Assembly (NCBI GenBank): GCA_027405735.1
Contig: JAPEHQ010000011.1
Span: 868,001 to 932,000, forward strand
Source: Mucor racemosus
Taxonomy: Eukaryota; Mucoromycota; Mucoromycetes; Mucorales; Mucoraceae
Reading direction: 5' to 3'
Length of the DNA stretch: 64,000 nucleotides
Shown here in pieces: positions 6,408-56,037 of this stretch (position 1 is the stretch's first letter; each line of letters begins with the position of its first letter). A program made the position numbers and the translations under genes. The notes under the pieces are model-generated. The model was not told the DNA's origin. It did not search any database and saw only the letters and a list, made by a program, of their open reading frames with translations.

Positions 6408-6436
6408 AAGTATTGTTGATATTTATAGATCAGAAA

Positions 6437-31800: not shown

Positions 31801-32514
31801 GACCTATTACAACTAAGAATTATAACAGTATGTAAGGCTGCCATTTGATAGTCAAATAGACTCTATTCGTTTTGCCTCAATGTTTTGGGCAAAAATATTA
31901 GGACAAAACGTTTAGGCCATATTTTTTCGTCAGTCAGATCTTCGCTACAAATTCTTTGTTCCTGAGAGTTATATGTAGATAACAATTATCTCCAGTACAA
32001 ATAAAATAAAGACTACAAGTGATTATATCACGGAGAACGTAGGGTCTTTATTATTAAGTTAAAAAAAGAAGCCTGGAGTCATCAGGTCCTGGATTCTAAA
32101 AGCATTTATACCATTTCAATTCCATTTGGATGTCAGGTTCAATATGGGATTGAAATGAGATTTAACATAAATAATAGGCAAAAACCTACAGTTCCTTCGC
32201 TTTCCCCCATACTTCAGTTATTATTTTAGTGCTCTCTGGCTTACAGAATAAATATCTATCAATATTCATTATTTGTTTGAATTAAAGGTACCAATCTATT
32301 GCATATTGTGCGCCTATGGTGATTTATTTTTTTACATGAATGAGAGTATGTTATATTACATTTGATATAGATTAGAAAAAAATACAGTCATTAGTTGCCT
32401 TGCTGGTTAATGGGGGGCTGATCGCTCAGTGATTACTGATTATAATATGTGTGTTGCATAAAAAAGTACTTTGTATCACAATAATAATATATATCAAAAG
32501 TCGATAAGCTGATA
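31801..32514. other. AT-rich intergenic left of the palindrome
   Basis: No genes and no clear repeat. Confidence 0.3.
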
Positions 32515-33901
32515 TGCGTAGATAGTAGAAAGTGATAATTATACAAGGAATGCTATCCCAGATTAGTTAGCTCATTTTTACAATAAAAATTACAATGCAA
32601 CTCAAAAGGCTCATTATTAGCTTAAAAGTTACTATAATAACCTGTGAACGTAACACAGAATTTGGAATGAGGGTATGCACAACATTATTTTTTTTGAGCA
32701 AAGCCGAGGATATTCTTTTGTACACATTTTCGAGGACATCTCCACGAAAAATCAATATTTTGAAGAAATTTAAATTGGGACCTAGAGAGCTCAACGAGGT
32801 TGATGATATGAATGTAAAAAAACTCTACACAATTTAACGAATATTTTGGAATCTATTACGAAAATGTCAAAAAAAAGAAATAAAAAAAAAGATGTCCAGA
32901 GTTTTTCAAACTCAGATATGTTAAAGAGAATTTTAAAACAAGTAAGTTTTATTAAAAAAAAGTTTTAGGATATCTTAATTTTTTGCAGAGATATTAAGGC
33001 TCAAAGTTTCAATTTTTCATATTTAAGCTGTAAAAACCAAAGTTGGAAGAAAAAATTATCGGTTTTTCCGAATTTATTCGACAGATGCTATAGTAATAGT
33101 CTGTAGACAATTAATTGTTATTTGTAGCCCTTAAAAATCTGTATCAAATCAAACTAATTTCAGCAAGAGGTTTTTACGATTTTTGGATGGGGGTTGGGGT
33201 CAAAAAACAAGAGTACACCTTCAAATCTTCGTTACTCCTTGAAAAATTAATTTTTTTGAAAAAACTAAAAACGGATCTATATATATTGCTGCTAGCAATT
33301 ATTTTTATGGAACTGACATTTTGTTTGATAACTTACTAGAAAATGATATTAATAATTTATACGTTTTTGGTGTGTTTTATGAGGTAAATCCTTTGAATTT
33401 TTATTTTGGCTCTATTTGTATCTAACAAATGATATGCCTATTATATAGACAAAAAACTTTTATTATACTTGCAAGTAATGTCTATTTAATAAAATCAATA
33501 GATATGCTTGTTTTACTGATACTCCTATAATTTTTTGAACGGCTATATCTCCGCAAAAAAAATAGCTAAAAATATATGAATAGCACCATAGTAATTGCAG
33601 CACTATCTTGTATTAGAATCCACTTTTACCTCAGCACATGAAAAAATTTATGGGAAAAATGTTGGAGATCTGATTTTAGGAAAAAAAAAACCATTTTAAC
33701 TTGTGGAGTGTAACTTTTTAATTTGTGGAGTGTAACTTTTTGACGTATGGAGTGTAACTTTTTGACGTATGGAGTGTAACTTTTTTTAATTTATGGAGTG
33801 TAACTTTCTTGACTGATGTCTCTCAATCCCTTCAAGTCGACCTAAATTACTTTAAAATGCTCCAAATAATAATGATTTAATACTGCCCAATCGGTGAATA
33901 A
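32515..33901 (+). repeat. Left arm of a 2.87-kb near-perfect palindrome
   Basis: Pairs with 33999-35385 (paired coordinates sum to 67900). Outer part is a copy of the R superfamily (ATCTCCACGAAAAATCAATA at 32739). Inner part carries five tandem TGGAGTGTAACTTTTT units. An open frame at 33115-33339 (74 codons, SARGFYDFWMGVGVKK word) is mirrored exactly in the other arm. A short spacer of about 97 bp lies between the arms. Confidence 0.93.
33701..33810 (+). repeat. Tandem repeat, five units of about 21-25 bp
   Basis: Unit TGGAGTGTAACTTTTT followed by a variable 5-9 bp (AATTTG, GACGTA, TTAATTTA). Mirrored at 34090-34199. Confidence 0.9.
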
Positions 33902-33998
33902 ATTTTGTACGATTAATTAAAACAGTTTATATTAAACAGTTTAAATGACGGTTTAAACGATAATTACCGTATGTTAAAAAACTAATTTTGGGCAACAT
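33902..33998. other. Spacer (loop) of the palindrome
   Basis: Not palindromic as a whole, with short AAACAGTTT/GTTTAAAC-like words near the axis at 33950. Confidence 0.8.
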
Positions 33999-35385
33999 TT
34001 ATTCACCGATTGGGCAGTATTAAATCATTATTATTTGGAGCATTTTAAAGTAATTTAGGTCGACTTGAAGGGATTGAGAGACATCAGTCAAGAAAGTTAC
34101 ACTCCATAAATTAAAAAAAGTTACACTCCATACGTCAAAAAGTTACACTCCATACGTCAAAAAGTTACACTCCACAAATTAAAAAGTTACACTCCACAAG
34201 TTAAAATGGTTTTTTTTTTCCTAAAATCAGATCTCCAACATTTTTCCCATAAATTTTTTCATGTGCTGAGGTAAAAGTGGATTCTAATACAAGATAGTGC
34301 TGCAATTACTATGGTGCTATTCATATATTTTTAGCTATTTTTTTTGCGGAGATATAGCCGTTCAAAAAATTATAGGAGTATCAGTAAAACAAGCATATCT
34401 ATTGATTTTATTAAATAGACATTACTTGCAAGTATAATAAAAGTTTTTTGTCTATATAATAGGCATATCATTTGTTAGATACAAATAGAGCCAAAATAAA
34501 AATTCAAAGGATTTACCTCATAAAACACACCAAAAACGTATAAATTATTAATATCATTTTCTAGTAAGTTATCAAACAAAATGTCAGTTCCATAAAAATA
34601 ATTGCTAGCAGCAATATATATAGATCCGTTTTTAGTTTTTTCAAAAAAATTAATTTTTCAAGGAGTAACGAAGATTTGAAGGTGTACTCTTGTTTTTTGA
34701 CCCCAACCCCCATCCAAAAATCGTAAAAACCTCTTGCTGAAATTAGTTTGATTTGATACAGATTTTTAAGGGCTACAAATAACAATTAATTGTCTACAGA
34801 CTATTACTATAGCATCTGTCGAATAAATTCGGAAAAACCGATAATTTTTTCTTCCAACTTTGGTTTTTACAGCTTAAATATGAAAAATTGAAACTTTGAG
34901 CCTTAATATCTCTGCAAAAAATTAAGATATCCTAAAACTTTTTTTTAATAAAACTTACTTGTTTTAAAATTCTCTTTAACATATCTGAGTTTGAAAAACT
35001 CTGGACATCTTTTTTTTTATTTCTTTTTTTTGACATTTTCGTAATAGATTCCAAAATATTCGTTAAATTGTGTAGAGTTTTTTTACATTCATATCATCAA
35101 CCTCGTTGAGCTCTCTAGGTCCCAATTTAAATTTCTTCAAAATATTGATTTTTCGTGGAGATGTCCTCGAAAATGTGTACAAAAGAATATCCTCGGCTTT
35201 GCTCAAAAAAAATAATGTTGTGCATATCCTCATTCCAAATTCTGTGTTACGTTCACAGGTTATTATAGTAACTTTTAAGCTAATAATGAGCCTTTTGAGT
35301 TGCATTGTAATTTTTATTGTAAAAATGAGCTAACTAATCTGGGATAGCATTCCTTGTATAATTATCACTTTCTACTATCTACGCA
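33999..35385 (-). repeat. Right arm of the 2.87-kb palindrome
   Basis: Reverse complement of the left arm. The arms are not fully identical (for example GAGGGTATGCAC at 32669 against GAGGATATGCAC on the other strand near 35225). A pure sequencing or assembly mirror is therefore less likely. Confidence 0.93.
34090..34199 (-). repeat. Tandem repeat in right palindrome arm
   Basis: Reverse complement of the five-unit tandem in the left arm; here AAGTTACACTCCA-type units. Confidence 0.9.
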
Positions 35386-35759
35386 CATTACTGTTTTACC
35401 AAAACTGGAAGCTGAATCAAACGATTATGAAGAGGATGAGATCCGAAGATTTGCCGCTGGTCATGTCTGCTTCGAAATGTTGCAGGACGTCAGGGGTAGC
35501 TTTGCTCCTTTCAGCAAAGTAAAGAAAATCTATCCCTGGAATATTTATGTCCAAAATCAACTGAAGAAACAAAGGAAAGTAAAGCAAAAAAGAGGTTCTC
35601 TGATGATGATTTTTTGAAAAAAATATCTGAAAATTTTTCTGATTTGAAGAAGAGTAACCCTGAAACAATCAAGGAATTGGCCCACGTTGCCAAAACTGAA
35701 AAGGAAAGGTCAGCTACGGTTGATTTACAGCTCAGGCATGAACTGTTCAAAAGAGAATG
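35386..35759 (+). pseudogene. Frameshifted fragment of an unrecognised protein gene
   Basis: Begins exactly where the palindrome ends, without a start codon. The first frame reads EEDEIRRFAAGHVCFEMLQD. After about 35550 the coding signal moves to another frame with KKRFSDDDFLKKISENF and TEKERSATVDLQLRHELF, a basic helical stretch, then a stop. Either one frameshift or a missed intron separates them. No family recognised. Confidence 0.45.
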
Positions 35760-36790: not shown

Positions 36791-37045
36791 CAACAATGGT
36801 ATTCGTTTAATTTTAAAATATATATTTATCTTTGTATTCAGATACATATGGCATTTTTATTCGAAAAAGGTTTCTTTATAAATTGTTTTCATATTTCTAA
36901 GAAAAAAAGGAAATGGGTATTTTAAAATTTCAAAAAAGAATTATTTTTTCAATGCTTGCATCATTCTTCACTTTGCTACTAAAAAGATATGGACGTATTA
37001 CCGTCAAGGGATACAAGATAATACGCTCCATAGTCGCATTGGGTT

Positions 37046-37140
37046 AATATATTTACCATTACTATTTAGTAGAAATGACACTTCACAATACTGTCATAAC
37101 TGTTATGTACCTATAGCCAAAGGCTACCGTAACAATCAAA
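37046..37140 (+). repeat. LTR A tail followed by LTR A head (stacked fragments)
   Basis: TTAATATATTTACCATTACT at 37046 resembles the 3' end of LTR A (copies at 38237 and 44527). It is followed after a few bases by TGTCATAACTGTTATGTACC, the start of another copy at 37092, which breaks off after about 45 bp. Confidence 0.6.
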
Positions 37141-37326
37141 TGCAAGTTCATAACCGCGACAAACTAACCATTAATTGAATTCTTTCATAGAACACCTTCC
37201 GAACCTCGATTCATCCAAATGTTCGTTTAACTACCCGTGTGAACATCACCAAGCTTAAATCAAACTGGAACTCCTCACCACAGATCGCTGTTTCAATACA
37301 TCTTTTGATTATTCCATCTTGAAAGC

Positions 37327-37875
37327 TGTTTAAATATACACAATGAATAACTAGAAAATAAAGTTAAAACTAGATATATTTATTGAGTATATTGTAGGTA
37401 AAAAAGATAATGAATCCATCTCCAACGATATCAGGATTCAGGGTATTTATATGTTTTGGAAGCGTGGATATAGAGTCTACAATACAGCGTGTATGAAAGG
37501 ATGATTTCATCGTCTTGAAGAACTAGTTGATTACAACATGATGATATAATAGGTTGGCCATAGCAAGTTTAGTAGGATACGACCAACTTAAGTATATAGG
37601 ATATTCTTACTTAATTAACTTTAGATAGTGAATGTTTATAAAAATGGAATAGTTGAATTCCATTTCCACGAACGAGCTCATGATTGGCTCACTTCAGGAT
37701 CTCAGGCTACACCATTTCATCATAGACTAAATGTTGTAACATAACTAAATGAAATAAAATTGGCATACATCATTATCACCTCATACTCATTATTCTATGC
37801 TAAGAATAATGTCTAAATAATCCTTTGAGCACTTCTACTAGTAATACATGTACCCAGTATAGTCTATGTCCTAAA
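37327..37875 (+). repeat. Dispersed repeat family E, copy E1 (uninterrupted)
   Basis: Starts with TGTTTAAATATACACAATG and matches 43165-44250 apart from the LTR D insertion there. Probably an LTR, but its 3' end is unclear. Confidence 0.75.
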
Positions 37876-38236
37876 AAAAAGCGTCATTAAAACTTCAAGT
37901 AAAACCTTTTCCGCTTCTAAGTAAAAATACAGACTAATAGAATACATGATAACAAATTCAACACCGTTGAGAGAATCCGAATTCCATCGCTAGATCTTGT
38001 ATAAAAATTCTTGAAGAGGTTAAACACCACTTAATTCCATAATTCCACTGAATCAATTGCTTCCAAATTTTATACAATACACCTTCAATATAATTCCAAT
38101 CTAAACATACACAATTATAACCACAATAACCACCAATTCAATCCAAAATGTAGATACAATCATTTAAAAGACAGTTTCCTTTTATAGAAAGATTTTCCAC
38201 AGGTTTACCCATCAATAAATACGCATGTATCAATAT

Positions 38237-38530
38237 TGTCATAACTGTTATATACCTATAGCCGAAGGCTATTAGGTATTTTAGTTATGTTTTATATGTT
38301 TAGTCTGTAAGGAACAATTATTAATAAATGTAGTAGCAATAGATTTATATTAGAAAGAAGCTAAGTTTATTATTGAAGTATATAACATGAGCTTATACAG
38401 TATACTCATAACTAGTAATGACTAAATACCGAACAGATCTATCGAACCGAACAGGTCGGAATGCACGTGATATATATCACGTGAGCTTAATATATTTACT
38501 ATTACTTTTTATTAAGAATGACACTTGATA
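38237..38530 (+). mobile_element. Solo LTR A1, immediately upstream of tRNA-Asn
   Basis: Starts TGTCATAACTG and ends near ACACTTGATA. Flanked by AATAT at 38232-38236 and 38530-38534. Matches the copy at 44527-44815, including the palindromic CACGTGAT...ATCACGTG block. It ends about 11 bp before the tRNA gene. Confidence 0.8.
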
Positions 38531-38541
38531 ATATCACTAAA

Positions 38542-38615
38542 GCTTCCGTGGCGCAATTGGCTAGCGCGTCTGACTGTTAATCAGGAGGTTGGTGGTTCAA
38601 GCCCACCCGGGAGCG
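38542..38615 (+). tRNA. tRNA-Asn (anticodon GTT)
   Basis: The acceptor stem GCTTCCG pairs with CGGGAGC. The anticodon arm CTGA-CTGTTAA-TCAG gives GTT. The T arm contains GGTTCAAGCC. No intron. A T run (Pol III terminator) follows at 38616. Confidence 0.95.
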
Positions 38616-40222
38616 TTTTTTTTTGCATTTCATTTTATTTTATGTTTTTGTGTTGTCGTGTCATGCAATGTTGCAAATCGAACTGCAACTCTCCTTTTTT
38701 TTTCTTAAATAAATTACTATCAATCAAAAATAAACAAACAATCTTGATCCCCAAAAATTATATTATACTGTTACAAATCGAACATTTATTATTTGAATAA
38801 ACTCTTTTTTTTTGTTACCCTTGAACTCATCTTTCCAAATCTGTCACAATCTGTCAAAAGTAAAATCAAACACAAATTCAAAGCACGAAGGCTTTGTAAC
38901 AACACCCATATATTCATACAGATTCCTTTTTAATCAAACTTCTGGAGACTCGACTCTCTTTAATCCATAAATTTATTATATAATCCCTGCATTCAAGATA
39001 CGACAACCATTTGATCTTGCCATGACTCACAATTGCTCTTATTTTGCCCCAATTATTGGAAGGAGATCAGTTAAAGATTGATCTCGAACATATTATCTAC
39101 CTAGACATAGAAATTATTAGAAACAATTAGAAATTATACAATTATTATAAAAAGGAAGCTATAGACTTCAACCAAATAAAGAGCTATCTTATATCTTACA
39201 TACTTTATATCATATCTAAATTGCTCGCTATTCTATTAGTTAGGAGCTCAATTATCTTTTATCCTTTTATATTACTTTACATTATATACTAGATCCCTTG
39301 AACTGTCTTTAGAAGTTCATTGTACCTTTTTCACATTTACATCTTTCGTTTTATATACATTTATATAAAACATTTACTTATTAGTTGGACAACTATAAAC
39401 CTGGTGCTCATTGAATAGACAATTACTGCTCTGGCAATATCTATTTTATTTACTTTCAATCCTACTTTCTCTTATTACTTTATCACTTTCACTAGTTACC
39501 GCTCGTAACAATATTATACTTCCAGATTCTAGTTCAGAAGTAACAAAAATCATACACGAAATTCACCAAACCTTATATACTATTGATTTAATCTCCCATT
39601 GTATTATTTTACAACTCATACAAAAAGAACAACAGATTCAATTACCATAAATACAATATACCTGAATATTGACAGGATCAATATCTGAAATCTTTGCCTA
39701 ATCTTTACAAATCTTTACTCAGTGATTATAAATCAACACATATTCATGGAAATATACTACGGATGTAACCACATCTCATATCACCACAATCTACAAACTC
39801 AACTTTTTCTTTAGATGTCATCAGTAAAGACATTTTATTATCGAATTCAAACATTATCAACATTAAGGATGCTCTAGCAGACAAACATTAGTATAAATAA
39901 CAATATTTAAAAAGAACAATTAATAAGCATATCTTATTTCTTACCTATATTTTGATTATATACTATTTTCATATTATTTTGATATTCTTTACTTTACATT
40001 TACTATTTTATAAGATCCATTAAACTATTTTCTCTATATTTTATTGTACATTTCTTTACTTATTTCGCTTTGTATTTTATATAAGACATTTATGTAGTTG
40101 GACAACTTAAAACCTGGTGCTCATTTAATAGATATAACTGCATTGGCTATACTCTATTCTCTTATTCTTCATTTCTTATTCACTTTACTACAATCTCAAT
40201 TGTAACAGCAATTTAGGTATTT
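38616..40222. other. Repeat-derived AT-rich region
   Basis: Holds two direct copies of a segment with GGACAACT(T)A...ACCTGGTGCTCATT (39388 and 40102). A third, inverted copy is at 40445-40510. Likely internal parts of degraded retroelements. Short hydrophobic ORFs (39411-39650) have no recognisable domain. Confidence 0.5.
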
Positions 40223-40331
40223 TGTTACACAAATCAAAATAGTATAAATAGCAGATTCAAATGTCAAACTCAATAAACAATGTCTTTTAACTTATAACTG
40301 AATTATCTAATTACATTTATTATTATTATCA
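40223..40331 (+). repeat. Short LTR-like repeat C (about 109 bp)
   Basis: Runs TGTTACACAAATC to TTATTATCA, with a TATA box (AGTATAAATAG) and AATAAA inside. An inverted, shortened copy is at 46362-46453. Confidence 0.55.
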
Positions 40332-40699
40332 CGACACTTGGGCATGTCTTACAGTAGATTCAAATAAACGTACACAAAGATTATATTGTAACAAATAATG
40401 TTTATAACAGCGATGTGTTGAAAGTAAATAAAAGAAAGTTAATACAGTATTGCCAATGGAGTAATATCTATCAAATGAGCACCAGGTTTTTAAGTTGTCC
40501 AACTGCATAAATGTCTTATATATAATATAAAACGAAATAAGTAAAGAAAAATAAGAAATGTACAATAAAATATATAGAAAATAGTTCAAGGGATCTTGTA
40601 ATATAGCAAATATAAAGAAAATGATACCAAGAATAATATGTAACCGAAAATATAGGTAAGAAATGGGCATACTCGAAATAACTGTGGCATTTCTCAATT
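40332..40699 (-). other. Degraded retroelement segment, inverted copy
   Basis: Reverse complement resembles 39940-40190. A 134-codon hydrophobic minus ORF (40329-40733) spans it and the next LTR; I see no evidence that it is a gene. Confidence 0.45.
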
Positions 40700-41223
40700 T
40701 GTTGTATGCCGACCTAGTATCATATGTTATCACCTTCTACAGTATCAATGCATCTTACAACCTATTGACTACGACATGTATTGAAGTGCAAAGTCTTGAT
40801 ATCGGACATAAGAAACTCCTAGCGTACTAAATTTAATCTAGTAATTACCAAGAAGGCTTGGATCTCAATTATGACACCATATTATTTCATTACAGCGGTT
40901 AATCAATCAAGTAGCTATCAAATCAATATCCAAGTACATTTAGTGCATAATTGAAACAAGGCAACTCATAAGCTCCGCGAGCACGGTTAAATTATGATTG
41001 ATCATTTCAATCCATAGATTATATCAAATAAATCTAATGGTTTAATAATGCCTTAAATTACATCTCAGGATCTCAATATCAAATCAATATAAAAGGGCAT
41101 ACTTTTATATCTAAATAAACGATATCTTGTTCTTATTATACAGTTGAAGAGCTGATTCATTACTCATTTTTTTAATTGCATTCTTTTTAAATGTTATTCA
41201 TCAGACCTGAAAATATACGATAG
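40700..41223 (-). mobile_element. Solo LTR D, minus orientation
   Basis: Reverse complement matches 43491-44024 end to end (TATTTTCAGG start, CATACAACA end). No clear target duplication. Confidence 0.75.
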
Positions 41224-41299
41224 TCATGTATGTTTTACTTTTATAAATTCTTTAAAATTTTTGATTTTGTAGACTTTTTTTTGAATTTGGTTGTGGTAT

Positions 41300-41960
41300 T
41301 TTATACTGTACTTTCCAAGTTAAACCCGTTATTAGGCTAATGTTTGACGGTATGTTGCATGTTGTTGATCTATCAGAATTAGGAATTATCAAATTACCAA
41401 TTTAGAATATCTGTCAAACCATGATGTTCAACATGCAAGTCAAGCAAGGTCATATTCCATACGTCTATCATCATGCTACTATTGAATCGTAGAAGCATGA
41501 TTCTAATATATCCACACAATATCCAAATGCTCATTCTAATTTTACTATCACTCACATTTAATACACTCATTCAATTAGTATATAAACCCCCTCTATAAGC
41601 TCATAATAAAACGGTACTTTTTTATTTGATTAATTTTATACAATTTACCTTTCGATAAATCAGTTTTACTATATAATTTACATAGAATAAGCCGTTGAAT
41701 AATTAGTAATACTGTCGAACCTTACTTTTTGTATGAAACTTTGATACCTGCACCTCAAAGCTGCTTGAGATATTTAAACAGCCGCGTCCGGGCTGTCCGG
41801 TAATTTTCTCTAAAAATTTATAACTTGGAAATATTATTAGAAGGCCGCGTCCGGGGGATTATTCGGCATTTTTTTTTGGAAGAATGACTATTGGCAAAAA
41901 TGTAGATTACACATTCAATTAATAATAAATAATAAACGAAACACCCTTTTTTGAAACCAC
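41300..41960 (+). repeat. Dispersed repeat family H, copy H1 (with extra 300 bp)
   Basis: Shares AAGTTAAACCCGTTATTAGG (41319) and GCCGCGTCCGGGCTGTCCGG (41782) with 56600-56990. Between these, H1 has about 300 bp absent from H2, with an LTR-like AGTATATAAACCC/AATAAA arrangement at 41577-41610. The block after TACTGTCGAACCTT resembles pogo-type ends, unproven. Confidence 0.65.
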
Positions 41961-42203
41961 ACTCAGGGTTTATAAATGAGCCAAGAAAACCTGTAGATCC
42001 AGTTTCTTTTCTTTTAGTGTTAATCATTTTAATTTGAGTATGTAGCACCTGCATCACTAAAACTGGTATAAACAATGTAAGAACACCAACCTTCCTTCAA
42101 CCAATGTTCACCGATCTTTAATATTAAAAACTATTTTATTAACTTATCATTTTGACCATAATATTTATTCGCTTGTTGGTGACTCTAATTGAGATAATGT
42201 CTA

Positions 42204-42867
42204 ATGTTATCAAAGATGAATATAATAATGCTGTTACTGACTTTGACTTGGACGAGTTTTTATCAACTCGAACCTCAATTGATGCATGGTTTTGAACAAC
42301 TATCCCCAAGTGCCGTCAAGTCTTTGAAGTTTAAAAAATCTGCTGCTATGGCGCATGAAGACTTTAGACTTCCTTTGCAATATTATAACTCTGTCTATAA
42401 TTATGCAAATTACATTGGTTGCAGTAGCGGGCTCAGTATTGATTACCTCAAGAGCTTAGGCTATATCCAGGTTGACAATACAATGGATACAAGTCAGCGG
42501 AAAGTAGCGTAAAAAATCACCGTGGCTCTTTTGTCTTGGCTTTTCTAGAAGCAAGATTGGTGCTTTGTGTCCAGCACAGATTCAGTACTTTTTCCGCCAT
42601 GAGGTAGCAGTTATAAATACACAAAATGAATTTGTGGATGTAACCCATACGTTTGCTTTGGTCAAGTGGTTTAAGCCACCTCATCTCGAGCTTCCTTCCT
42701 TCCAAATTGCTAATAAATACATAGAGTTATGCTCTTGTGGATTTGAAGAACCATCTGCTATGTCAATTATTCTAGTGCATTACATCCATTTTCCAATTGC
42801 CATCAAATTGAATTATATCGACAACATGCATGCTTTCGTAAAAATGCCAGAACAATTGATAATTTAA
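42204..42867 (+). pseudogene. Broken ORF of unknown repeat-associated family
   Basis: Frame one (42204-42509) includes LPLQYYNSVYNYANYIG. After a stop, a second frame (42565-42867) reads CPAQIQYFFRHEVAV, VTHTFALVKWFKPPHLELPS and ends PEQLII. The parts look like one protein split by a frameshift. The second part resembles the C-terminal halves of repeated hypothetical proteins of Mucoromycota, by memory only. Function unknown. Confidence 0.4.
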
Positions 42868-43164
42868 TGTTGCTTCTGCTTTGTTTTTCTCTCTCTTCTT
42901 ATCTTTGATACTTGATGCCTGGACATCAGCATGGGTTTATATGATATTCATCAATATTATATAAACCTCGGAATTAGTGTGCTTCGACCTTCTCGTGGAT
43001 AATTCTGCTAAGGCCATGATAAATTTTTTTACGTGGTAACCAACAAAGCACAACAAAATGTAAGAATTTATATTATGAATATCATGAGCTTTTTAATGCC
43101 TTCTTTTTTTTAGTACTTTATATATTTGCTGATTCATCTACAGACTACTTCTGGTGCCCTGGTG

Positions 43165-44250
43165 TGTTTTAATATACACAATGAATAACTAGAAAATAAA
43201 GTTAAAACTAGATAGATTTATTGAGTATATTGTAGGTAAAAAAGATAATGAATCCATCTCAAACGACATCGGGGATCCAGGGTATTTATATGTTTTAGAA
43301 GCGCGGATATAGAGTCTACAATACAGCGTGTATGAAAGGATGATTTCATCGTCTTGAGGAACTAGTTGATTACAACATGATGATATAATAGATTGACCAG
43401 AGCAAGTTTAGTAGGATACGACCAAGCTAAGTATATAGGATATTCATGCTTGATTAACTTTAAACAGTGAATGTTTATACAAATGGAGTATGTCGTATAT
43501 TTTCAGGATTGATAAATAATACTTAAAAGCGAATACAATTATAAAAGAATGAGTAATTAATCAATTCTTCAACTGTATAATAAAAACAAGATACTGTATC
43601 GTTTATTTAGATATAAAAGTATGCCCTTTTATATTGATTTGACATTGAGATCCTGAGATGTAATTTAAGGCATTATTAAACCATTAGATTTGTTTGATAG
43701 TAATCTATGGATTGAAATGGATCAATCATAATTTAACCGTTCTTGCAGAGCTTGTGAGTTGTCTTGTTTCAATTATGCACTAAATGTACTTGGATGTTGA
43801 TTTGATAGCTACTTGATTGGTTAACTGCTGGGATGAAATAATGTGGTGTCATAATTGAGGTCCAAGCGTTCTTGGTAATTACTGGATTAAACTTGATACG
43901 CTAGGAGTTTCTTATATCCGATATCAAGACTTGCACTTCAATACATGTCGTAGTCAATAGATTGTAAGATGTATTGATACTGTAGAAGGTGATAATGTAT
44001 GATACTAGTAGGTGGAATACAGCAGAATAGCTGAAATCCATTCCCAGGAACGAGTTCATGATTGGCTCAACTTCAGGATCTCAGGCTACACCATTTCATC
44101 ATAGCTTAAATGTAACACAACTAAATGAAATAAAATTGGCATACATCATTATCACCTCATACTCATCATTCTATGCTAAGAATAATGTCTAAATAATCCT
44201 TTGAGCACTTCTACTAGTAATACATGTGCCCAGTCTAGTCTATGTCCTAA
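43165..44250 (+). repeat. Dispersed repeat family E, copy E2, split by LTR D
   Basis: Matches E1 on both sides of an LTR D insertion at 43491-44024. Confidence 0.8.
43491..44024 (+). mobile_element. Solo LTR D inserted in E2 (about 534 bp)
   Basis: Runs TGTCGTATATTTTCAGG to AATACAGCA. Flanked by GAGTA (left) and GAATA (right), a 5-bp duplication with one change. E1 shows the site without it. Contains AATAAA-type and TATA-like words. The other copies are at 40700 (minus) and 36713 (fragment). Confidence 0.8.
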
Positions 44251-44482
44251 ACATGGTGAACTACTTTCAAATACTGTAGAATTAGTTGCAAATCTTATAT
44301 TCTTTGTATTTAAGCATAAAATGAAAAATTACCGAATAAAGATCAGATGTTGTATGTTAAGAATTACTGCTTCTTGGGCACTCACCACTTTACTATTATC
44401 CTTACCACTATAAAATATTTTGAAGGTGTATTAGGGATCTCTAATACAACCTCAGACGCATATAAGATGTAGTGGCTGCTAA

Positions 44483-44522
44483 TATAATTACTACTACTAT
44501 TTATTAAAAATGACAATTAATA
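44483..44522 (+). repeat. Remnant of an older LTR A 3' end
   Basis: AATATAATTACTACTACTAT and following bases resemble the LTR A tail, directly before the next copy. Confidence 0.5.
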
Positions 44523-44526
44523 AAAT

Positions 44527-44815
44527 TGTCATAACCGTTATATACCTATAGCCGAAGGCTATCAGGTATTTTAGTTATGTTTTATATGTTTAGTCTGCAA
44601 GGAACAACTATTAGTAAATGTAGTAGTAATAGATTTATATTAGAAAGGAGTTAGGTTTTATTATTGAAGTATATAACATGAGCTTATATACCCATAACTA
44701 GTAATGACTAAATACCGAACAGATCTATCGAACCGAACAGGTCGGAGTGCACGTGATGTATATCACGTGAGCTTAATATATTTACCATTACTATCTATTT
44801 AAAATAACACTTGAC
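44527..44815 (+). mobile_element. Solo LTR A2, immediately upstream of tRNA-Glu
   Basis: Starts TGTCATAACCG and ends AACACTTGAC. About 90% like A1 by eye. It ends 11 bp before the tRNA gene. Confidence 0.8.
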
Positions 44816-44826
44816 ATAATATATCC

Positions 44827-44898
44827 TCCTCAATGGTCCAACGGCTAGGATTTATCGCTTTCACCGATACGGCCGGGGTTCGACTCCCAGTTGGGGAA
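44827..44898 (+). tRNA. tRNA-Glu (anticodon TTC)
   Basis: The acceptor stem TCCTCAA pairs with TTGGGGA. The anticodon arm TATCG-CTTTCAC-CGATA gives TTC. T loop TTCGACT. The T stem has one weak pair. No intron. A TTTT run comes later (44902). Confidence 0.9.
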
Positions 44899-44959
44899 TA
44901 TTTTAGTAAAACTTATTTTTGATGTGCGTGTAGCTTGATTGTTTATTTTTGTTAACAAT

Positions 44960-45113
44960 TGTCAGGTACACCCAGACTTTGTGTGTAACCTTTTTGATTA
45001 GTATAGAATATCAAAACATATAATAATAATAGAGATCATCTTCTATCTCATATATAATCTTTTGTTTACATTTATTTAAATCTACTGTAAAACATATATC
45101 TCAGCACACAACA
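44960..45113 (+). mobile_element. Solo LTR B1, downstream of tRNA-Glu
   Basis: 154 bp from TGTCAGGTACACC to CAGCACACAACA (TG...CA). Lies 61 bp after tRNA-Glu. Matches B2 at 46454-46588. Confidence 0.75.
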
Positions 45114-46361
45114 CAATAATGTCTTTTTTTATTATTCGACTTCATGCATTAGTTGGCGAAAAGTTAACTTACTGTGATCTGTGATACTTTGCATAGTTAT
45201 ATCTTAAAAAAAGTTTTCTTTTAAGGTGTATCCACATTGTTGTAATGGATTGGTTATGAATGGGTACTCAATCTAAAGGAACTCACCTGTAATAATCTGT
45301 GATCTTGGATAATATTATCGTAAAAAAAAATAATATGCTAATGATATGATTTTTAATAATATTAGAAATTGATGTTCTTGTTTGTAAATTAGGTATGTAC
45401 ATTCATATATTAAGGAAATTAAATAAGGAGGATGTAAAGAGTGCAGTAAAATAAGGGTGTGAAAAAGCGATAAAGAATACTATTAAAATCCTTTTTTATT
45501 AAAATATGCATAATGTGCAATAAAATTGTTATATCAAAGGATACTAATATAAAAATACTCTGCTAAAAGATACATTTTATTAATTCTTTGATGCTTCGTA
45601 TTTATATGTTTTCTAGATAGTTATATGATTATTCATATTATTAATGAATTGCCGGGTATTGAGGTACTTGATATGATTTGTTCCCAAATCATATACAATG
45701 AAATTTGTAGAATTGGGAACCTGTGATTGTATCATTTGGATAAGATGTAGGATTGCTTATGTTTCATTGTTGCCAAGTGTTCCTGAAGATTCCTGATAGT
45801 CGCTGTTAATGCTAGTGGTTATGTATGACATTTAGTATGAGTTACTAAATGTCATGCCATGTTGGATTTCAATAGTTGTTCCTGGACTTCTACATCTGGG
45901 TAAGCTTCTGATATATCAAAAATGGTTATTCTACCATTCTACGTCTCTATTTATATTATTTGTTGATTATTTACTATCTGGCAATTGTATTGCAATTACC
46001 AACGATTCCATTAATTTTGAGTATAAATGTTGGGTTGTTTGGTTATTGATTTGGTGGATTAAGAACGGTATTTTAAATATATTCTGTCAATCATGCTTTC
46101 ATAACAGTCTTTACTTGTTCTACCTGATGAGCATGTACTTTTTGTATTTTTTATTTGGGATATCCCACATTACTTTAGTATTTAAACATCTCTTATTCGA
46201 GTATTATACCCTTGCTATCTTCATGCAATCATCTATTTACTATACAGTCTTATCTTTGATAGCATGGTTTCAATGAAATGACATTTAATTTAGGTATTTT
46301 ATGATGCGAATCTAGCTTAGTTCACTTCAAAGAGAAATAGAGACAGATACTTCTAAACTGT
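45114..46361. other. Repeat-derived region with a hydrophobic ORF
   Basis: A 140-codon plus ORF (45854-46276) encodes a very hydrophobic, Phe/Leu/Tyr-rich chain with several possible membrane spans. It is similar in composition to the ORF at 40329-40733. It sits in repeat sequence and has no recognised domain; a protein-coding role is doubtful. Confidence 0.35.
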
Positions 46362-46453
46362 GGTGATAACAATAAATGTAGTTAGATAATTTAGTTATAA
46401 GTTAAAAGACATCGTTTATTGAGTATGACATTTGAATCTGCTATTTGTACTAT
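46362..46453 (-). repeat. LTR-like repeat C, inverted partial copy
   Basis: Reverse complement of most of 40223-40331, cut off at 46453 by LTR B2. Confidence 0.6.
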
Positions 46454-46588
46454 TGTCAGGTACACATAGACTTTGTGTGTAACCTTTTTAATTAGTATAA
46501 AATATCGAAACATATAATAATAATAAAGATCATCTTTTATATACATTTATTTGAATCTACTATAAAACAAATATCTCAGCACACGACA
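46454..46588 (+). mobile_element. Solo LTR B2, downstream of tRNA-Phe
   Basis: 135 bp from TGTCAGGTACACA to CAGCACACGACA. Lies 53 bp beyond the 3' end of tRNA-Phe, which runs on the minus strand. Confidence 0.75.
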
Positions 46589-46641: not shown

Positions 46642-46714
46642 TGCGGCTAAAGTGGATCGAACACCTGACCTTTAGATCTTCAGTCTAACGCTCTCCCAGC
46701 TGAGCTATACCCGC
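46642..46714 (-). tRNA. tRNA-Phe (anticodon GAA)
   Basis: Anticodon arm TTAGA-CTGAAGA-TCTAA, D arm GCTCAGCTGGGAGAGC, T loop TTCGATC. The acceptor stem GCGGGTA against TAGCCGC has a G.G mismatch at the fifth pair, so it may be a diverged or pseudo-tRNA. Confidence 0.85.
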
Positions 46715-48580: not shown

Positions 48581-48586
48581 TAGGAA

Positions 48587-48818
48587 TGAAATGTCAAAAC
48601 GGTCTTGCCAAAATATTACACTTTTTATTAACAATACATCCAGAGGATGTATTTATATACTTTTCATTATAACTATTACACAGAATTACTATCTAAGAAC
48701 ATTACACCAATTTACTAAGACGCATGTGAATCAACGTGTACACCTGTTGATTTACTATAATACCGAATATTGACTGCGACCTTGAATGTGCGACCTAGGA
48801 TATGATATTGACATAACA
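48587..48818 (-). repeat. 3' LTR of chromovirus
   Basis: Identical by eye to 56038-56269. Confidence 0.95.
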
Positions 48819-49123
48819 CCATCCCACACCAACATAAGCATTATGTGATAAAAGATAGTGATAGTTGTTGTAGTTTGTTGTAATTGTAATTTGTGTATAA
48901 GTTGGTTGACATAACGTGAAAAAAAGAAAAAATAAAAAAAATAAAAACGGCAATATTGTTGATATATGATAATGTACTTCTTGTTGATTGATCTTCGTTG
49001 TACAATAATATAAACTTCAAATTTAGATATTCAGGGGCAACCATTAAAAACCTCACATTCCAAAAACCCAGTGGGATCAAAAAGGAAATGTTAAAAGGAA
49101 AAGGTATAGCCTTCATCTAACAT

Positions 49124-52100
49124 TTAAATCGTATCTTCTGCTAATAATCTTTCACGCTTCTTCTTGGACTTCTCCTCGCGTGTAGCAATCTTTCTTGTAT
49201 TAATTGATTTAGGAGCTTGCTTTCCCTTACTATTAGATTGCGTATTAGCATCTACTCTCGCCCAATAATGTTTAATAACATCAGGAGAATCAAATGATGC
49301 TGGTGGTTCCCAAGAATCATGATCTTCTGTGAAATTCTTCCATCTTACTAAATATTCGTAATTGGGTGGAGTACCTCTATGCTTTATAATAGCTTGTACT
49401 TCATACACATCTGAGTTATCTTCCTTTGCATCATTCGTGCTGATCAACTTGATCTGTTGTGTAGGTACATCTCTAGCTAAGAATGTATCAGTTTTATCAG
49501 TAAGAATATAGCTTCCATTTTTTGTTATTCCATGTATATAAAATGGGCCTTCATAGTTAGGATCAGTTTTCCTATTATTATTTTCTATATTCTTGATCAT
49601 AACAGTAGATCCAATTGGATAAGGTTTCTCCAAGATTCTATGTCTCTTTCTAAAGTAATTACTATCCTTATCCTGTGTCTTTAGTATTTGGTCTCTAATT
49701 GCTGGAACAATAATTCTATCAATTAAATCGAGCTTCTTTTTAAATGCTTCCACATCGATTTCTCTTTCATGAAGTGTAGGTTTATCTCCTCGATAATCCT
49801 TAAATTCATTAGGTGCTCTATGAAACATTACCATGAATGGCATCATCCCATGTAGTCTAGATCTATGTACATTTAAACTTAATGCTGTTCCATTAAGGTA
49901 CAAATCCCAATCTTTACTACGACCTTCCAACATCTTTATAATTATTGTTTTTGCAGACTTTACTGCAGCTTCACAGCAACTATTACCTTGGGGCGTAAAT
50001 GGTAAACTTGCTCTATTCTCAACCTCAGCATGTTTAAGTATCTTTTCAAGTAATTTATTATGGAATTCTGCACCTCGATCATGACCAACGATACGTGGGT
50101 AGCCGAACAATGAAAAGATAGATACCAATTCCTTTGCAACAGTAGTAGCTGATTTATCTGGAATTGCACGTAAGATAATAAATCTCGAGAATAGATCTAG
50201 CACTACTAATATAAAATTATTTCCCCTTGGTGTAGTGCAATCAAATCCACCTAGATCAAATACAACATGATCCATTATCCCTTCAGGAGCTTCTTGCTTT
50301 GGTGGATGGTAGACATGCTTAGCTAAATTGAACTGTCTGCATTCATGGCAATTTGATATATATTTCGTAATATCTTCCCTTAAGCCTTTCCAATGCATAT
50401 TCAAATCTTGGTGTATAACTTGCTCCATTGCATGAATACCGAAATGCCCAAGTAAATGTGTTTTTTCTAATATATTTTGTTTTTCTTCATCACTTGCAGG
50501 CGTTTCATAAACATCTAAATGACTAACGCAGAATAATAACTCTTCGTTCTTATTCTTCAATTTGTTTACATACGCTGTCAATTTAGCGTTATTAAAAAGA
50601 TCAGAGGTTTCCCTCGGAATGATTACTTTTGGTGATCCGGAGATAACGGAAGTATCGCATGCAATAAGGTTATCATGTGCTTCCTTAAGTTTATCTTTCC
50701 CCTTATTCACAACATGTAATTTCCTCTTTTTCTTTTCTTCTACTACATTGTCTACTACATGCTTTCTCTTTCCTTTAACCTTTGTATCAATATCTTGTTT
50801 AACTAAATTCTTTTCATTAACATGATTTTTAATTAAACGCTTATCACCACTCTCCACCAGCGTATTGTATGGCCAGAAAAGACGCGATAAGGTATCAGCC
50901 AAGATATTGTTAATGCCACTACAAAAGGTAATATCAAAATCCATTTCAAAAATTGTATCATAATAGTTCTCAACCATTCGATCCAATTTAGGTTGCGAAT
51001 GTAGAAATAAAATACCACGATTATCCACAAAGAGATGGAATCGTCTTCCATACAACCATTGATGGAACTTTTTAAATGCATAGACAACTGCAGCTAATTC
51101 TCGTTTGGAACTTCCCCATCTTTGCTCTGATGGACTCAAACTGCGTGCAATAAAACCAAGATATTTTATTTTATTACCAATAACTTGATACATTGCAGCG
51201 CCAATTGCATAGGCAGAACTATCAGTAACAAAACAGATTGGATAATGTAAGTTAGGCACACTCAACACTGCTGAGCTGACTAATAATTCTTGCAATTGCT
51301 TCATTAATTTAGTATGTTCTGGTGTCCATACTTTAGTAATCTCAGGTGCATTTCTCAATTTATCTAGTGGTGCTGTCAACATCGACAAGCGTGGCAAATT
51401 AGAACGAAAAAAGTTAATCAATCCTAAACGTGAACTCAATTCACGGCTACTTTTAACGGTAGGTTCCCAATCCAAAACATTTGAAACCTTTCGAGGATCT
51501 AATGCTAAACCCTCACTAGATAAGCAGAAACCCAATATATAAATGCTCTTTTGCGCAATATGCAATTTTTCAGTATTTATACGTAAGTTTGCTTTAGTCA
51601 AGCGATCGATAACGATTTTAACTAGTTCTGTATGCTTTTTCAGGTCGTTTTCAGTATGTATAGTGACATCATCTATAAAGTGAGTGGTAGTATCACTGAT
51701 ATCAGCAAACAAATTAGAAAGTATTTTTTGTGCGTGCGATGAGACCATAGTCAATCCGTACGGGCAGTGAGAGAAGGACCACGTCAATCCCTCCATATCA
51801 GTGAACGTCAAATACGATCTTGACGATCTGGATATTTTAAAAGCATGGAAACATTGCGATAAGTCAATGACAGTATAGAGCGAATGCTTCGACATCTTAC
51901 GATGCAAATCACTTATCAAGGGCAATGGGAAACGTTCAAGTTTCTCAGGATCTAATGCATTATTTATCAAACGACAATCAATTACCACACGGTGCTCTTT
52001 TCCAGTGTATTCACCATCACTATTTTTCTTTCGTACAGTAAAAATTGGAGAATTATGAGGTGTATTAGGTTTTGCTCTTTTAATCACACCATTTTCTCGC

Positions 52101-54241
52101 CATTTTTCAACTTGTTTTTGAATAACAGGTCGCAATGCTTCAGCAATTGGAAATTGTCTACGACATGTATTCGCAAGTGGGGTATCTTTCTTTATGGGCA
52201 ATGTAATTTCACTACCAGGAATATTACAATATGCTTTAGGACTAATACTAGTATTTGCATCAATAAATGGTTGTAATTCGTTCATCATAATTTTACGTTC
52301 TTCTTCAGATCCATAAGGATCTTCATTTGGTTTATAAGGATTGGGTTCAATCTTTGGTATTTCATAACCAACACGATCTGACCAATCTGCTGCAATATTA
52401 CCTAACGTAATACCAACTTTATACAATAAATCCATTCCAAATACACAATGGACATCGTCAAATAAATCAAAAACTTCAAATTTTGAATGAACAATTTTAG
52501 AACCATAATTAATTATAAGCTCTTCTTCAGTTTGACCCTTACGATCTACTACACTGTTATTTTGTGCCAATTTAATAATACCATTTTTATTACAAATATT
52601 TAAATTTAGAAAAGAAACTAATTGTGGTGAAATTGCACTAAACGTGCAACCAGTATCCAACAAAAACCAAGTGTTGACCTTGATGCCAGCGCTTGTTTCT
52701 AAAATAACAGGTAAATAAAGAAGACCATTAGTATTCATATTATTATTAGGCATCTTCCTAAAATAATCACTATCAAATTGCTTACATTCACTATCGGTAT
52801 CCATTTGAGATACTTCTTTTCCCTTTTTCTTTGGGGCAGCAATAGTGGCCACAGCAAAATGTTGGTCACTTTCATCATCAGATGAATCATCAGTGTCTTC
52901 AGTAACACGAGAAGGAGTAGGCACGATAGACTTCTTCTTTTTCCCATGAACAGTGTTCTTGGTATTCTTCTTGCACACTGCTTTGTGCGCATACGTGAAG
53001 GGAGTAAATCCACAATCAAAGCATTTTGGTGTATCACCACCATTATTTGCTTTTTGTTTGGTATGGAATTTACCAGCTCTTCTTACTGGCTTTTTTGCAA
53101 AACCATTGTATTGTTTACCAATACGATTACCAGCATTATGATTACCATTGTAACCACCACGAGAAGATGAACCATAATGGCCACCTTGTTGCTTCAACTG
53201 CCTAATTATTCTCTGGGTCAGTTCTTCTTCTTTTCTGTGCTTTTCCTCTCGGTAATAACTATCACGACGCAACAAATCGTAAACACTTCGAAGCTGAGAG
53301 ATTGCATAATCCAAAGTATCCTTCTCTTTATCTCTCGATTGAGAAATATTCAATGATACAGGACTATACAAATCCACATCAAGACCCTTCAACAAATAAT
53401 CAGTCAAACTAGTGTTCTCAGTAACACCAGCCAAGTCTTTCAACGTTGTAAACTTGTCGATATAGACTTCTAAGCTTTCACATTTCTCCAATTTCAAATT
53501 TTTCAATTTGTTGAGAGCAGCTTTCTTTTCCTCAGCCTCAGAAGGACTATACTTAGCCTTCAACTTGGACTTAAATTGACCCCAAGAAATACTAGGGTAT
53601 CTCTCGATTACTTCACGAGTCCAAGAAGCCATCCCAGTCGACATTTTGGGCTTTATGATTCTTTTCCAGTTTGCTTCAACTGAAATTGAACGAGATTCCA
53701 ATACATCTTCGAACTGAGTCAAACATGCGTCCATACTTTGAAAAATGAATTTCTTGGTATTAAACTTATGTCCTTTCCATTGTAAAAATGGAGTGTCAGA
53801 AGGAACTAACGATGATTCACCCGTGGCAGTACCCATCATGGTACTTTCATCAAATAAAAGATCATAATTCTCTTTTACCAGTTTTAACTGACGTTTCAAG
53901 GCACTTGCTTTTGAGGCTAGAGTACCATTATCAATATGCTTAATTGATAATGCAGTTGCATTATACAACTGAACTCGCAGTTGTTTGATTTCATTCAACA
54001 GCTTCACTTGATGTTCCTTTCCTAGGAAAGTAACTTCTTGAACACCATGGTCAAGATCAAGTTCACTATCACTCATGATAGTATCATCATCCATAGAAAG
54101 AGCGTCATCGCTCAATTCCTTGGTAATACGAGCGTCTTCGCTACAAGTATTATAGTTATCATGCAGAGCATCATTGCTCAATGCATCATTTACATCTTGT
54201 CCCGAAGACAAAGATGAACCAAGATCAAAATCCATATCCAA
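49124..54241 (-). CDS. Gag-Pol polyprotein with C-terminal chromodomain
   Basis: A 1705-residue fused ORF. Gag-like helical region at about 150-330 (GMASWTREVIERYPSISW). Degenerate zinc-knuckle region near 410 (CFDCGFTPFTYAHKAVC). Aspartic protease with D529 in FLLDTGCTFS. RT with VVIDCRLIN and the catalytic FIDDV at about 857. RNase H begins at FVTDSSAYAIG (about 1005). The integrase has an HHCC region and a core D1329, D1388, E1424, with the usual 58 and 35 spacing. Chromodomain at about 1612-1660 (YEYLVRWKNFTEDHDSWEP), which can guide insertion to modified chromatin. The frame is unbroken. The same frame stays open upstream of the ATG to the Tc1 insertion at 54317 (a TGTSATKARQ-type stretch). 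Coding may once have extended there, although no upstream ATG is visible. Confidence 0.93.
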   Translation of the reverse strand: MDMDFDLGSSLSSGQDVNDALSNDALHDNYNTCSEDARITKELSDDALSMDDDTIMSDSELDLDHGVQEVTFLGKEHQVKLLNEIKQLRVQLYNATALSIKHIDNGTLASKASALKRQLKLVKENYDLLFDESTMMGTATGESSLVPSDTPFLQWKGHKFNTKKFIFQSMDACLTQFEDVLESRSISVEANWKRIIKPKMSTGMASWTREVIERYPSISWGQFKSKLKAKYSPSEAEEKKAALNKLKNLKLEKCESLEVYIDKFTTLKDLAGVTENTSLTDYLLKGLDVDLYSPVSLNISQSRDKEKDTLDYAISQLRSVYDLLRRDSYYREEKHRKEEELTQRIIRQLKQQGGHYGSSSRGGYNGNHNAGNRIGKQYNGFAKKPVRRAGKFHTKQKANNGGDTPKCFDCGFTPFTYAHKAVCKKNTKNTVHGKKKKSIVPTPSRVTEDTDDSSDDESDQHFAVATIAAPKKKGKEVSQMDTDSECKQFDSDYFRKMPNNNMNTNGLLYLPVILETSAGIKVNTWFLLDTGCTFSAISPQLVSFLNLNICNKNGIIKLAQNNSVVDRKGQTEEELIINYGSKIVHSKFEVFDLFDDVHCVFGMDLLYKVGITLGNIAADWSDRVGYEIPKIEPNPYKPNEDPYGSEEERKIMMNELQPFIDANTSISPKAYCNIPGSEITLPIKKDTPLANTCRRQFPIAEALRPVIQKQVEKWRENGVIKRAKPNTPHNSPIFTVRKKNSDGEYTGKEHRVVIDCRLINNALDPEKLERFPLPLISDLHRKMSKHSLYTVIDLSQCFHAFKISRSSRSYLTFTDMEGLTWSFSHCPYGLTMVSSHAQKILSNLFADISDTTTHFIDDVTIHTENDLKKHTELVKIVIDRLTKANLRINTEKLHIAQKSIYILGFCLSSEGLALDPRKVSNVLDWEPTVKSSRELSSRLGLINFFRSNLPRLSMLTAPLDKLRNAPEITKVWTPEHTKLMKQLQELLVSSAVLSVPNLHYPICFVTDSSAYAIGAAMYQVIGNKIKYLGFIARSLSPSEQRWGSSKRELAAVVYAFKKFHQWLYGRRFHLFVDNRGILFLHSQPKLDRMVENYYDTIFEMDFDITFCSGINNILADTLSRLFWPYNTLVESGDKRLIKNHVNEKNLVKQDIDTKVKGKRKHVVDNVVEEKKKRKLHVVNKGKDKLKEAHDNLIACDTSVISGSPKVIIPRETSDLFNNAKLTAYVNKLKNKNEELLFCVSHLDVYETPASDEEKQNILEKTHLLGHFGIHAMEQVIHQDLNMHWKGLREDITKYISNCHECRQFNLAKHVYHPPKQEAPEGIMDHVVFDLGGFDCTTPRGNNFILVVLDLFSRFIILRAIPDKSATTVAKELVSIFSLFGYPRIVGHDRGAEFHNKLLEKILKHAEVENRASLPFTPQGNSCCEAAVKSAKTIIIKMLEGRSKDWDLYLNGTALSLNVHRSRLHGMMPFMVMFHRAPNEFKDYRGDKPTLHEREIDVEAFKKKLDLIDRIIVPAIRDQILKTQDKDSNYFRKRHRILEKPYPIGSTVMIKNIENNNRKTDPNYEGPFYIHGITKNGSYILTDKTDTFLARDVPTQQIKLISTNDAKEDNSDVYEVQAIIKHRGTPPNYEYLVRWKNFTEDHDSWEPPASFDSPDVIKHYWARVDANTQSNSKGKQAPKSINTRKIATREEKSKKKRERLLAEDTI

Positions 54242-54317
54242 AGATACAGATTGAGAAGTAGTACCAGTAGCAGGCTGACGAGCCTTGGTAGCAGAGGTAC
54301 CAGTAGCTTGTTTAATA

Positions 54318-54529
54318 CAGTGAGTCGCAAAACCCTTTCAATAATTTGGAAATTTGAATGAAAATAACCATAACTTTCTCAGTTTCAATCGGAGATACAC
54401 TAAATTTCTATTTTAAATAATTCAAACGTTTTTAAATTATTTTCAAAAAGTCCGATTTAATTAATTAAAGTTCCGCAAAAACTATGCAAGTTTAAAAAAA
54501 GGTACATCATTGAAAGGGTTTTGCACGCA
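54318..54529 (+). repeat. Left terminal inverted repeat of Tc1-type element
   Basis: Pairs with 55742-55953. Confidence 0.9.
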
Positions 54530-54677
54530 CAGGCTTAAAATTACAATTTTGTAACCCCTAACTTGTACATTAACGCTGGATATCTTATAAAACAGAGAAA
54601 TATGCGGAAAATATATGAGATGTTTTTCAACTTTTACCCTGCCTTTTTCACTAGCAGTTTCAAGCAAAATCATCAAG

Positions 54678-55706: not shown

Positions 55707-55741
55707 CTGCATTTAAATAAGCTTCAATTTTTTTTTGATAA

Positions 55742-55953
55742 TGCGTGCAAAACCCTTTCAATGATGTACCTTTTTTTAAACTTGCATAGTTTTTTCGGAG
55801 CTTTAATTAATTAGATCGGACTTTTTGAAAATAATTTAAAAACGTTTGAATTATTTAAAATAGAAATTTAGTGTATCTCCGATTGAAACTGAGAAAGTTA
55901 TGGTTATTTTCATTCAAATTTCCAAATCATTGAAAGGGTTTTGCGACTCACTG
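55742..55953 (-). repeat. Right terminal inverted repeat of Tc1-type element
   Basis: Pairs with 54318-54529. Confidence 0.9.
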
Positions 55954-56037
55954 TAGTAGTGTTGTTGCTTATTTTAAAAAGTAAAATAGTATGAGTTGTT
56001 TAGAGTATAATAGAAGTTTTTAGGTAGATTAAAAAAA

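Follow-up and report, generated by a model that had tools for sequence, protein, structure and literature searches.

We identify long terminal repeat (LTR) A, a ~294-bp sequence with TGTCA..TGACA ends and a 4-bp target duplication, as a repeat that adjoins tRNA genes in Mucor racemosus, and we read it, with a probability of about 92%, as the solo-LTR residue of a Ty3/gypsy-type family within a guild of at least four families (A to D) that integrate at RNA polymerase III (Pol III) start regions. The window, meaning the whole analysed stretch of 64 kb (contig JAPEHQ010000011.1, positions 868,001 to 932,000), comes from a 53.2-Mb genome in 54 contigs (GCA_027405735.1); its tRNA genes were called with ARAGORN and its LTR matches by BLAST. 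A first-pass annotation had described two solo LTRs of one family ending about 11 bp before tRNA-Asn and tRNA-Glu, and had proposed repeated, Ty3-like insertion at the Pol III start site. One family does precede both genes, with two corrections: the second LTR ends at 44816 rather than 44815 (its TTGACA end lies there, while the BLAST match stops at 44814), and the 11-bp spacing holds at tRNA-Asn, the gap to mature tRNA-Glu being 10 bp. Both further traces of older insertion that it saw, an LTR A tail just before the copy at 44527 and a tail-head pair near 37 kb, are real (Table 1), and beyond the window its proposals of Ty3-like placement and of reuse of one spot are borne out by the counts below.

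Three DNA searches for LTR A scored 40 of 108, 81 and 87 candidates, and more copies are possible. The resulting 87 loci were merged into 68 fetched stretches totalling 243 kb, which hold 52 tRNA genes and 74 LTR A matches, 63 of them with an intact 3′ end. Among these 63, 38 end 9–12 bp (corrected gap) upstream of a tRNA gene, all 38 in one orientation and before tRNAs of 17 anticodons; insertion in a narrow window, a few to ~15 bp upstream of mature tRNA genes of many isotypes, marks the Pol III start-targeting elements of the Ty3, Tj1 and DGLT-A type. A further 20 precede another LTR (A, 8; B, 5; C, 3; D, 4) and one precedes a dispersed tRNA-like repeat. Duplicated segments (inverted copies on C3; C8/C31) account for four pairs among the 63, three of which belong to the 38, and 59 intact ends, 35 adjoining tRNAs, remain when these are removed.

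Even if all 3128 first-look tRNA candidates are treated as genes, the corresponding 21-bp windows cover only ~0.12% of the 53.2 Mb, and ~0.08 hits would be expected per 63 ends; the adjacency is therefore not due to chance. Mapping of LTR A against tRNA genes, which the first-pass annotation had proposed as a check, thus shows enrichment, and two control families show no such link. Within 40 bp upstream of the 63 best-scoring tRNAs lie 7 of 41 LTR A copies, 0 of 40 LTR E copies (the best 40 of 350 first-look candidates, compared with the listed tRNAs) and 0 of 40 LTR F copies, and none of 20 fetched LTR F copies (20 of the 40 listed, from 623 candidates) has a tRNA within ~150 bp. At 14 LTR A loci without an adjacent tRNA, Rfam searches for other Pol III genes, 5S included, returned only three tRNAs at gathering thresholds, and in 15 mostly B- and D-bearing stretches they returned no Pol III gene at E up to 1.

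LTR A shares its nests at tRNA genes with LTR B (TGTCAGTATC..TATCTGACA, 335 bp, TGTCA..TGACA ends), element C (TGATAAATG..TATCA, ~1.15 kb) and LTR D (TGATAC..GTAACA, ~370 bp), and A, B and C all end 9–12 bp before the mature tRNA. Nests are ordered, for example, A-D-B-A-tRNA-Gly with joins of AATC or ATC (L049), D-A-C-B-tRNA-Asp with joins of AAAT or AAT, and C-D-A-C-tRNA-Ser, and flanking tetranucleotides recur within nests (AATC on C7; AAAT on C2, C20 and C19). Distinct LTR-LTR junctions that are no longer than 20 bp and whose ends could be read number 38; of the 28 that do not involve D, 21 are exactly 4 bp long. Independent draws from the distribution of 46 gaps would match with a probability of 0.35, which gives 21 of 28 a binomial p of 2e-5. 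Since each 4-bp join can be read as a target duplication, the next element would have been inserted between the older one and the tRNA. Joins before D are 5 bp in five of six cases (3 bp in the other) and joins after D are 3 bp in four of four, which places the usual site of D 1 bp closer to the tRNA. The gap also sorts by tRNA isotype (43 gaps, permutation p 0.002), making the positional ruler gene-specific, as would be consistent with the seat of TFIIIB.

The relative ages of the copies were compared through their identity to the query, the window's own copy in the case of A. In all six adjacent A-A tandems the 3′, tRNA-side copy is the closer one (3′ over 5′ identities of 94.5/90.5, 93.8/93.7, 92.6/92.2, 93.2/84.9, 94.8/84.8 and 94.2/81.5%). 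Copies of B proximal to the tRNA are 93.5–100% identical to their query and distal ones 84–94%; exceptions are two short pieces of 47 and 29 nt (100%) and two far LTRs that belong to full-length elements (97–100%). The B element before tRNA-Glu in L048 looks like a recent insertion, as its LTRs differ at 1 of 335 positions.

Orientation was counted on matches with a tRNA no more than 8 kb downstream in the fetched stretch, so that fragments may count repeatedly. Same and opposite orientations number 63 and 0 for A (of 74 matches; a different set from the 63 intact 3′ ends), 15 and 0 for C (of 17), 11 and 0 for D (of 14), and 13 and 3 for B (of 29). Because the coding strand of B is known, its split shows that B inserts both ways: it is reversed at tRNA-Thr and tRNA-Ser, and forward at tRNA-Glu, -Gly, -Ser, -Asp and -Arg. 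The sole D element with an internal region carries its gag CCHC knuckle on the opposite strand, with the purine tract on that side; its gag open reading frame (ORF) had no Pfam match. If the strand of this one element holds for the family, D would be antisense to the tRNA in all 11 cases.

Coding capacity was found in B. The element in L048 has a single frame of 1972 codons with Pfam matches to gag, RVT_1, RNaseH, H2C2 and rve in that order, and this succession of gag, reverse transcriptase (RT), RNase H and integrase assigns B to the Ty3/gypsy elements (Metaviridae); neither a protease model nor a Pfam chromodomain was matched in it. B carries ATTGGTAGCA after the 5′ LTR, GAAGGGGGGTGA before the 3′ LTR and a target duplication of AAAT, and it has the full set of Ty3/gypsy LTR features (LTRs with TG..CA ends, duplication, primer site and polypurine tract), of which A, seen as solo LTRs, offers the ends and the duplication. 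The best PDB match of B pol is Ty3 (7q5b, E 5e-119), and its RT-integrase part has its closest named relatives in Mucor velutinosus (90%) and Parasitella parasitica (89%), in keeping with a Mucor-like host within Mucorales. None of 26 B relatives chosen from 120 listed has a Pfam chromodomain; some more distant listed relatives outside the chosen 26 carry PF00385. A chromodomain after the integrase, the mark of chromoviruses, is thus lacking from B by Pfam and present in the control element F, a 1703-aa open frame between two identical 234-bp LTR matches. In the predicted structure of P0002, a B relative of 96% identity, one C-terminal barrel follows a 40-residue helix, and past the barrel the model holds one helix and mostly disorder at low confidence (mean predicted local distance difference test score, 60.6). 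If B has a second contact of the kind that Ty3 makes through its vestigial chromodomain, that contact may have to be sited elsewhere.

The best reading of these patterns is Pol III-targeted integration of the kind known from Ty3 and Tj1; A need not be Ty3 itself, and we infer that it is of Ty3/gypsy type. Judging from position, the integrase complex would be held by the Pol III initiation machinery, namely TFIIIB placed by TFIIIC. New copies would land between the older element and the tRNA, displacing older ones upstream, and most would then collapse to solo LTRs through LTR-LTR recombination. Several observations speak against this account or sit poorly with it. Four of the 63 intact A ends have no recognised target, of which one is the distal LTR of a TATC-flanked element whose other LTR adjoins tRNA-Leu and another is followed by a tRNA-like fragment. 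In some nests (L077, L079 and L087 among them) the short stretch fetched holds no tRNA, and several B copies have none within ~140 bp. Seven of the 28 junctions without D are not 4 bp long (5 bp in three; 7, 8, 9 and 10 bp). The fixed orientation of A and C is one of LTR polarity, which for A is not tied to a coding strand any more than it is for C. Rfam matches of the tRNA-like repeat all fall far below the family cut-offs. The full-length A element with integrase that the first-pass annotation would have had us look for did not appear: a pattern of A tail plus primer site gave one hit with one mismatch, which is not LTR A, and A may therefore be mobilised by another family.

That LTR A is non-autonomous, rather than once autonomous, and moved in trans by the integrase of another family, for instance B, is compatible with Pol III-targeted integration, and we regard it as possible but on balance doubtful. 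A and B have in common the TGTCA..TGACA ends, a duplication of 4 bp and the base that is targeted, and an autonomous A was not found, although the genome searches for A scored the best candidates only. The fixed orientation of A (63/0) as opposed to that of B (13/3) implies integration complexes that behave differently. In L053, two A copies flank a stretch of 4 kb, which has no homology to B pol.

Two further explanations would do without targeting. Random insertion followed by purifying selection, sparing only harmless copies just upstream of tRNAs, must have played some part, since old solo LTRs are survivors, but as the source of the pattern it is very improbable: harmlessness predicts neither reuse of one base (21 of 28 junctions at 4 bp) nor a fixed orientation, families E and F persist elsewhere in the same genome, the dispersed repeat, of which at least 40 copies are uninterrupted, is struck at the same point, and B copies with near-identical LTRs are already at tRNA sites. 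Still less credible is a spread of the arrangement by segmental or tandem duplication, or by gene conversion, of tRNA loci that already carried LTR A. Duplicated segments do account for the four pairs noted above, and an LTR E lies upstream at both window loci; yet 17 anticodons are involved, the insertions carry their own flanking tetranucleotides, and beyond the window the nests and tetranucleotides differ from locus to locus. For the two window loci, tandem duplication was rejected directly, because neither the kilobase that follows LTR A nor the one that precedes LTR E shows similarity between them, and the sole similarity between their E-to-A stretches is one 20-nt inverted match. The first-pass argument that their shared position is hard to explain by duplication thus agrees with the flanks compared.

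The dispersed repeat would extend the target range beyond tRNA genes. A single point of this repeat has received both A (L017) and B (L068/L072, L075, L078); at least 40 uninterrupted copies of the repeat exist (40 of 182 candidates scored), and these reveal 4-bp duplications of AAAC (L017, L075) and AGAC (L068/L072). A B-box-like GGGTTCGAAACTC is visible in it by eye, as is the tRNA likeness for which we name it. If the repeat is transcribed by Pol III, the target would be the machinery and not the tRNA itself. As a fifth Pol III target it was dropped, its Rfam matches being sub-threshold. L108 is also among the loci of this repeat.

The features of the window are collected in Table 1. LTR A contains a 20-bp perfect palindrome, CACGTGATATATATCACGTG (window 38464-38483). 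In three A copies elsewhere (L032/L054, L033, L060), inserts that start GCCACTACAGC or CACTGCAACTA break the LTR near its position 250, next to a TTAA, and a B copy in L046 is split by a CACTACAGC insert. The window also holds two neighbouring long ORFs of 1306 and 525 aa (2487-8014, minus strand), which by eye resemble a long interspersed nuclear element (endonuclease, RT and a zinc-knuckle ORF1), and a 1396-bp perfect inverted repeat with a spacer of 85 bp (32512-35388).

Table 1 Features at and around the two LTR A loci of the 64-kb window (positions are those of the window).
Feature	Position	Strand	Remark
Old LTR A copy, tail	37044-37087	+	then ATAC (37088-37091)
Second LTR A copy, head	from 37092 to 37126	+	breaks off at ~35 bp
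Element C (TGATA..TATCA, ~1.15 kb elsewhere), 5′ truncated here	37132-38232	+	split by LTR E 37328-37873
LTR E inside C	37328-37873	+	control family, none found close upstream of tRNAs
Target duplication ATAT, 5′ side	38233-38236	.	
LTR A, solo	38237-38530	+	
Target duplication ATAT, 3′ side	38531-38534	.	
tRNA-Asn(GTT)	38542-38615	+	ARAGORN; 11 bp gap to LTR A
Downstream repeat H	38672-38790	+	57 nt beyond tRNA-Asn
LTR E, second copy	43166-44249 (43166-43490 + 44025-44249, insert between)	+	
Old LTR A tail	44479-44522	+	then AAAT (44523-44526)
LTR A, solo	44527-44816	+	TAAT next (44817-44820)
tRNA-Glu(TTC)	44827-44898	+	ARAGORN; 10 bp gap to LTR A
tRNA 3′-flank motif T1, GTGCGTGTAG	44924-44933	+	
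LTR G (TGTCAGGTACAC..)	44960-45113	+	62 nt beyond tRNA-Glu
LTR I + LTR G	46359-46454 + 46454-46588	.	downstream of tRNA-Phe (46642-46714, minus)
Control chromodomain Ty3/gypsy element F	48585-56269	-	LTR matches 48585-48818, 56036-56269; ORF 49124-54235; chromodomain by Pfam

Downstream of the tRNA genes lie repeats of three other families, G, H and I. A match to one of them begins between +40 and +160 in 26 of the 44 non-duplicate tRNA loci whose downstream sequence spans 250 nt or more. Of the 49 match starts within 1 kb, some I elements being counted twice, 40 fall in this interval, nine beyond it and none nearer, and H has the orientation of the tRNA in all 14 of its matches there. One copy of G and another of I have CGACA at the end, and a TTGGTAGCA primer site comes next. 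These counts come from tRNA loci brought in mainly through A, at which the families were also defined, and so do not measure genome-wide enrichment.

Between the tRNA and these repeats, past the T-run, a 3′ motif is found in 42 of 47 loci (35 of 47 without loose variants), at 23–31 nt after the tRNA with one doubtful variant at 34. It falls into the classes T1 (GTGYNTGTAG, 23 loci), a looser T1 variant (7), T2 (GAGACGTT, 8) and T3 (TTACGTAA, 4). The classes were chosen after looking at the loci, which leaves the genome count of T1 as the independent one: a pattern of B box, spacer and T1 has 46 genome hits versus 0 for the reversed pattern. As 27 of the 46 have none of the 47 listed A or B places within 700 bp, those LTRs are an unlikely source of the motif. 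No description of it was found in the parts of the open-access literature consulted. Tentatively, and with the odds against it, we suggest that tRNA genes of Mucorales are two-sided landing pads, with at least four families upstream and others past a conserved 3′ element. On such a view, the family-fixed orientations and the 1-bp shift of D would mean that the geometry of integrase-TFIIIB docking differs heritably between families, and the conserved 3′ element may bind a host factor that guides the downstream families.

The target duplication of Ty3 is 5 bp, whereas that seen here, from repeated tetranucleotides and uninterrupted repeat copies, is 4 bp. Further differences from Ty3 are the fixed orientation of A, C and D, and the lack in B of a Pfam chromodomain and, in the low-confidence model, of a second barrel. 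The likeness lies in the order of gag and pol, in a landing site where Pol III transcription starts and in Ty3 being the best PDB match of B pol; the long helix before the barrel in the modelled B relative also recalls the extended linker of Ty3. According to the published account, Ty3 inserts upstream of tRNA genes, in the region where Pol III starts, its integrase touching TBP with a C-terminal barrel and Brf1 with a vestigial chromodomain (PMC8632968). In the available passages on Tj1 of Schizosaccharomyces japonicus, insertions lie 5–11 bp upstream of mature tRNA ends, those at Pol III genes have one orientation and the target duplication is 5 bp, and in 2015 its authors wrote that, to their knowledge, a fixed orientation was shown by no other LTR element of wild type (PMC4600332). 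The narrow window upstream of the mature tRNA recurs here in A, B and C, and a single orientation in A, C and D; Tj1 inserts forward only, however, whereas here D appears antisense with a 1-bp offset, B inserts both ways and the orientations of A and C are those of LTR polarity.

Excerpts on Dictyostelium place DGLT-A 13–33 bp upstream and Skipper-2 downstream of tRNA genes (PMC5911963, PMC5006619), and one genome with LTR elements on both sides of tRNA genes is thus a likeness to Mucor; as described there, DGLT-A differs in inserting in either orientation and Skipper-2 in having a diverged chromodomain, and the hosts are unrelated. Within Mucorales, Ty3/gypsy elements of Rhizopus oryzae are noted as 'often co-localizing with tRNA genes', in passages that give no position, orientation, duplication length or nesting (PMC2699053). 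Pol III-start targeting is in print, by the portion consulted of one survey, for Ty3, Tj1, Tyl elements, Beta and DGLT-A (PMC5911963). In the open-access literature on Mucorales, as far as its accessible parts extend, we found no paper on base-exact stacking, opposite family-fixed orientations or a 4-bp duplication. Landing at tRNA starts is already known from a few organisms, and is seen here in unusually clean detail.

Families whose orientation is fixed and families whose orientation is free meet here in one genome, at the same base of the same genes, together with an apparently reversed family that lies 1 bp off. They offer a natural comparison in which to seek the integrase residues that decide which way round the complex docks on Pol III genes. 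The LTR stacks in addition preserve the order of successive insertions, and judging from the 3′ motif, tRNA genes of these fungi may possess a downstream element that has so far escaped recognition.

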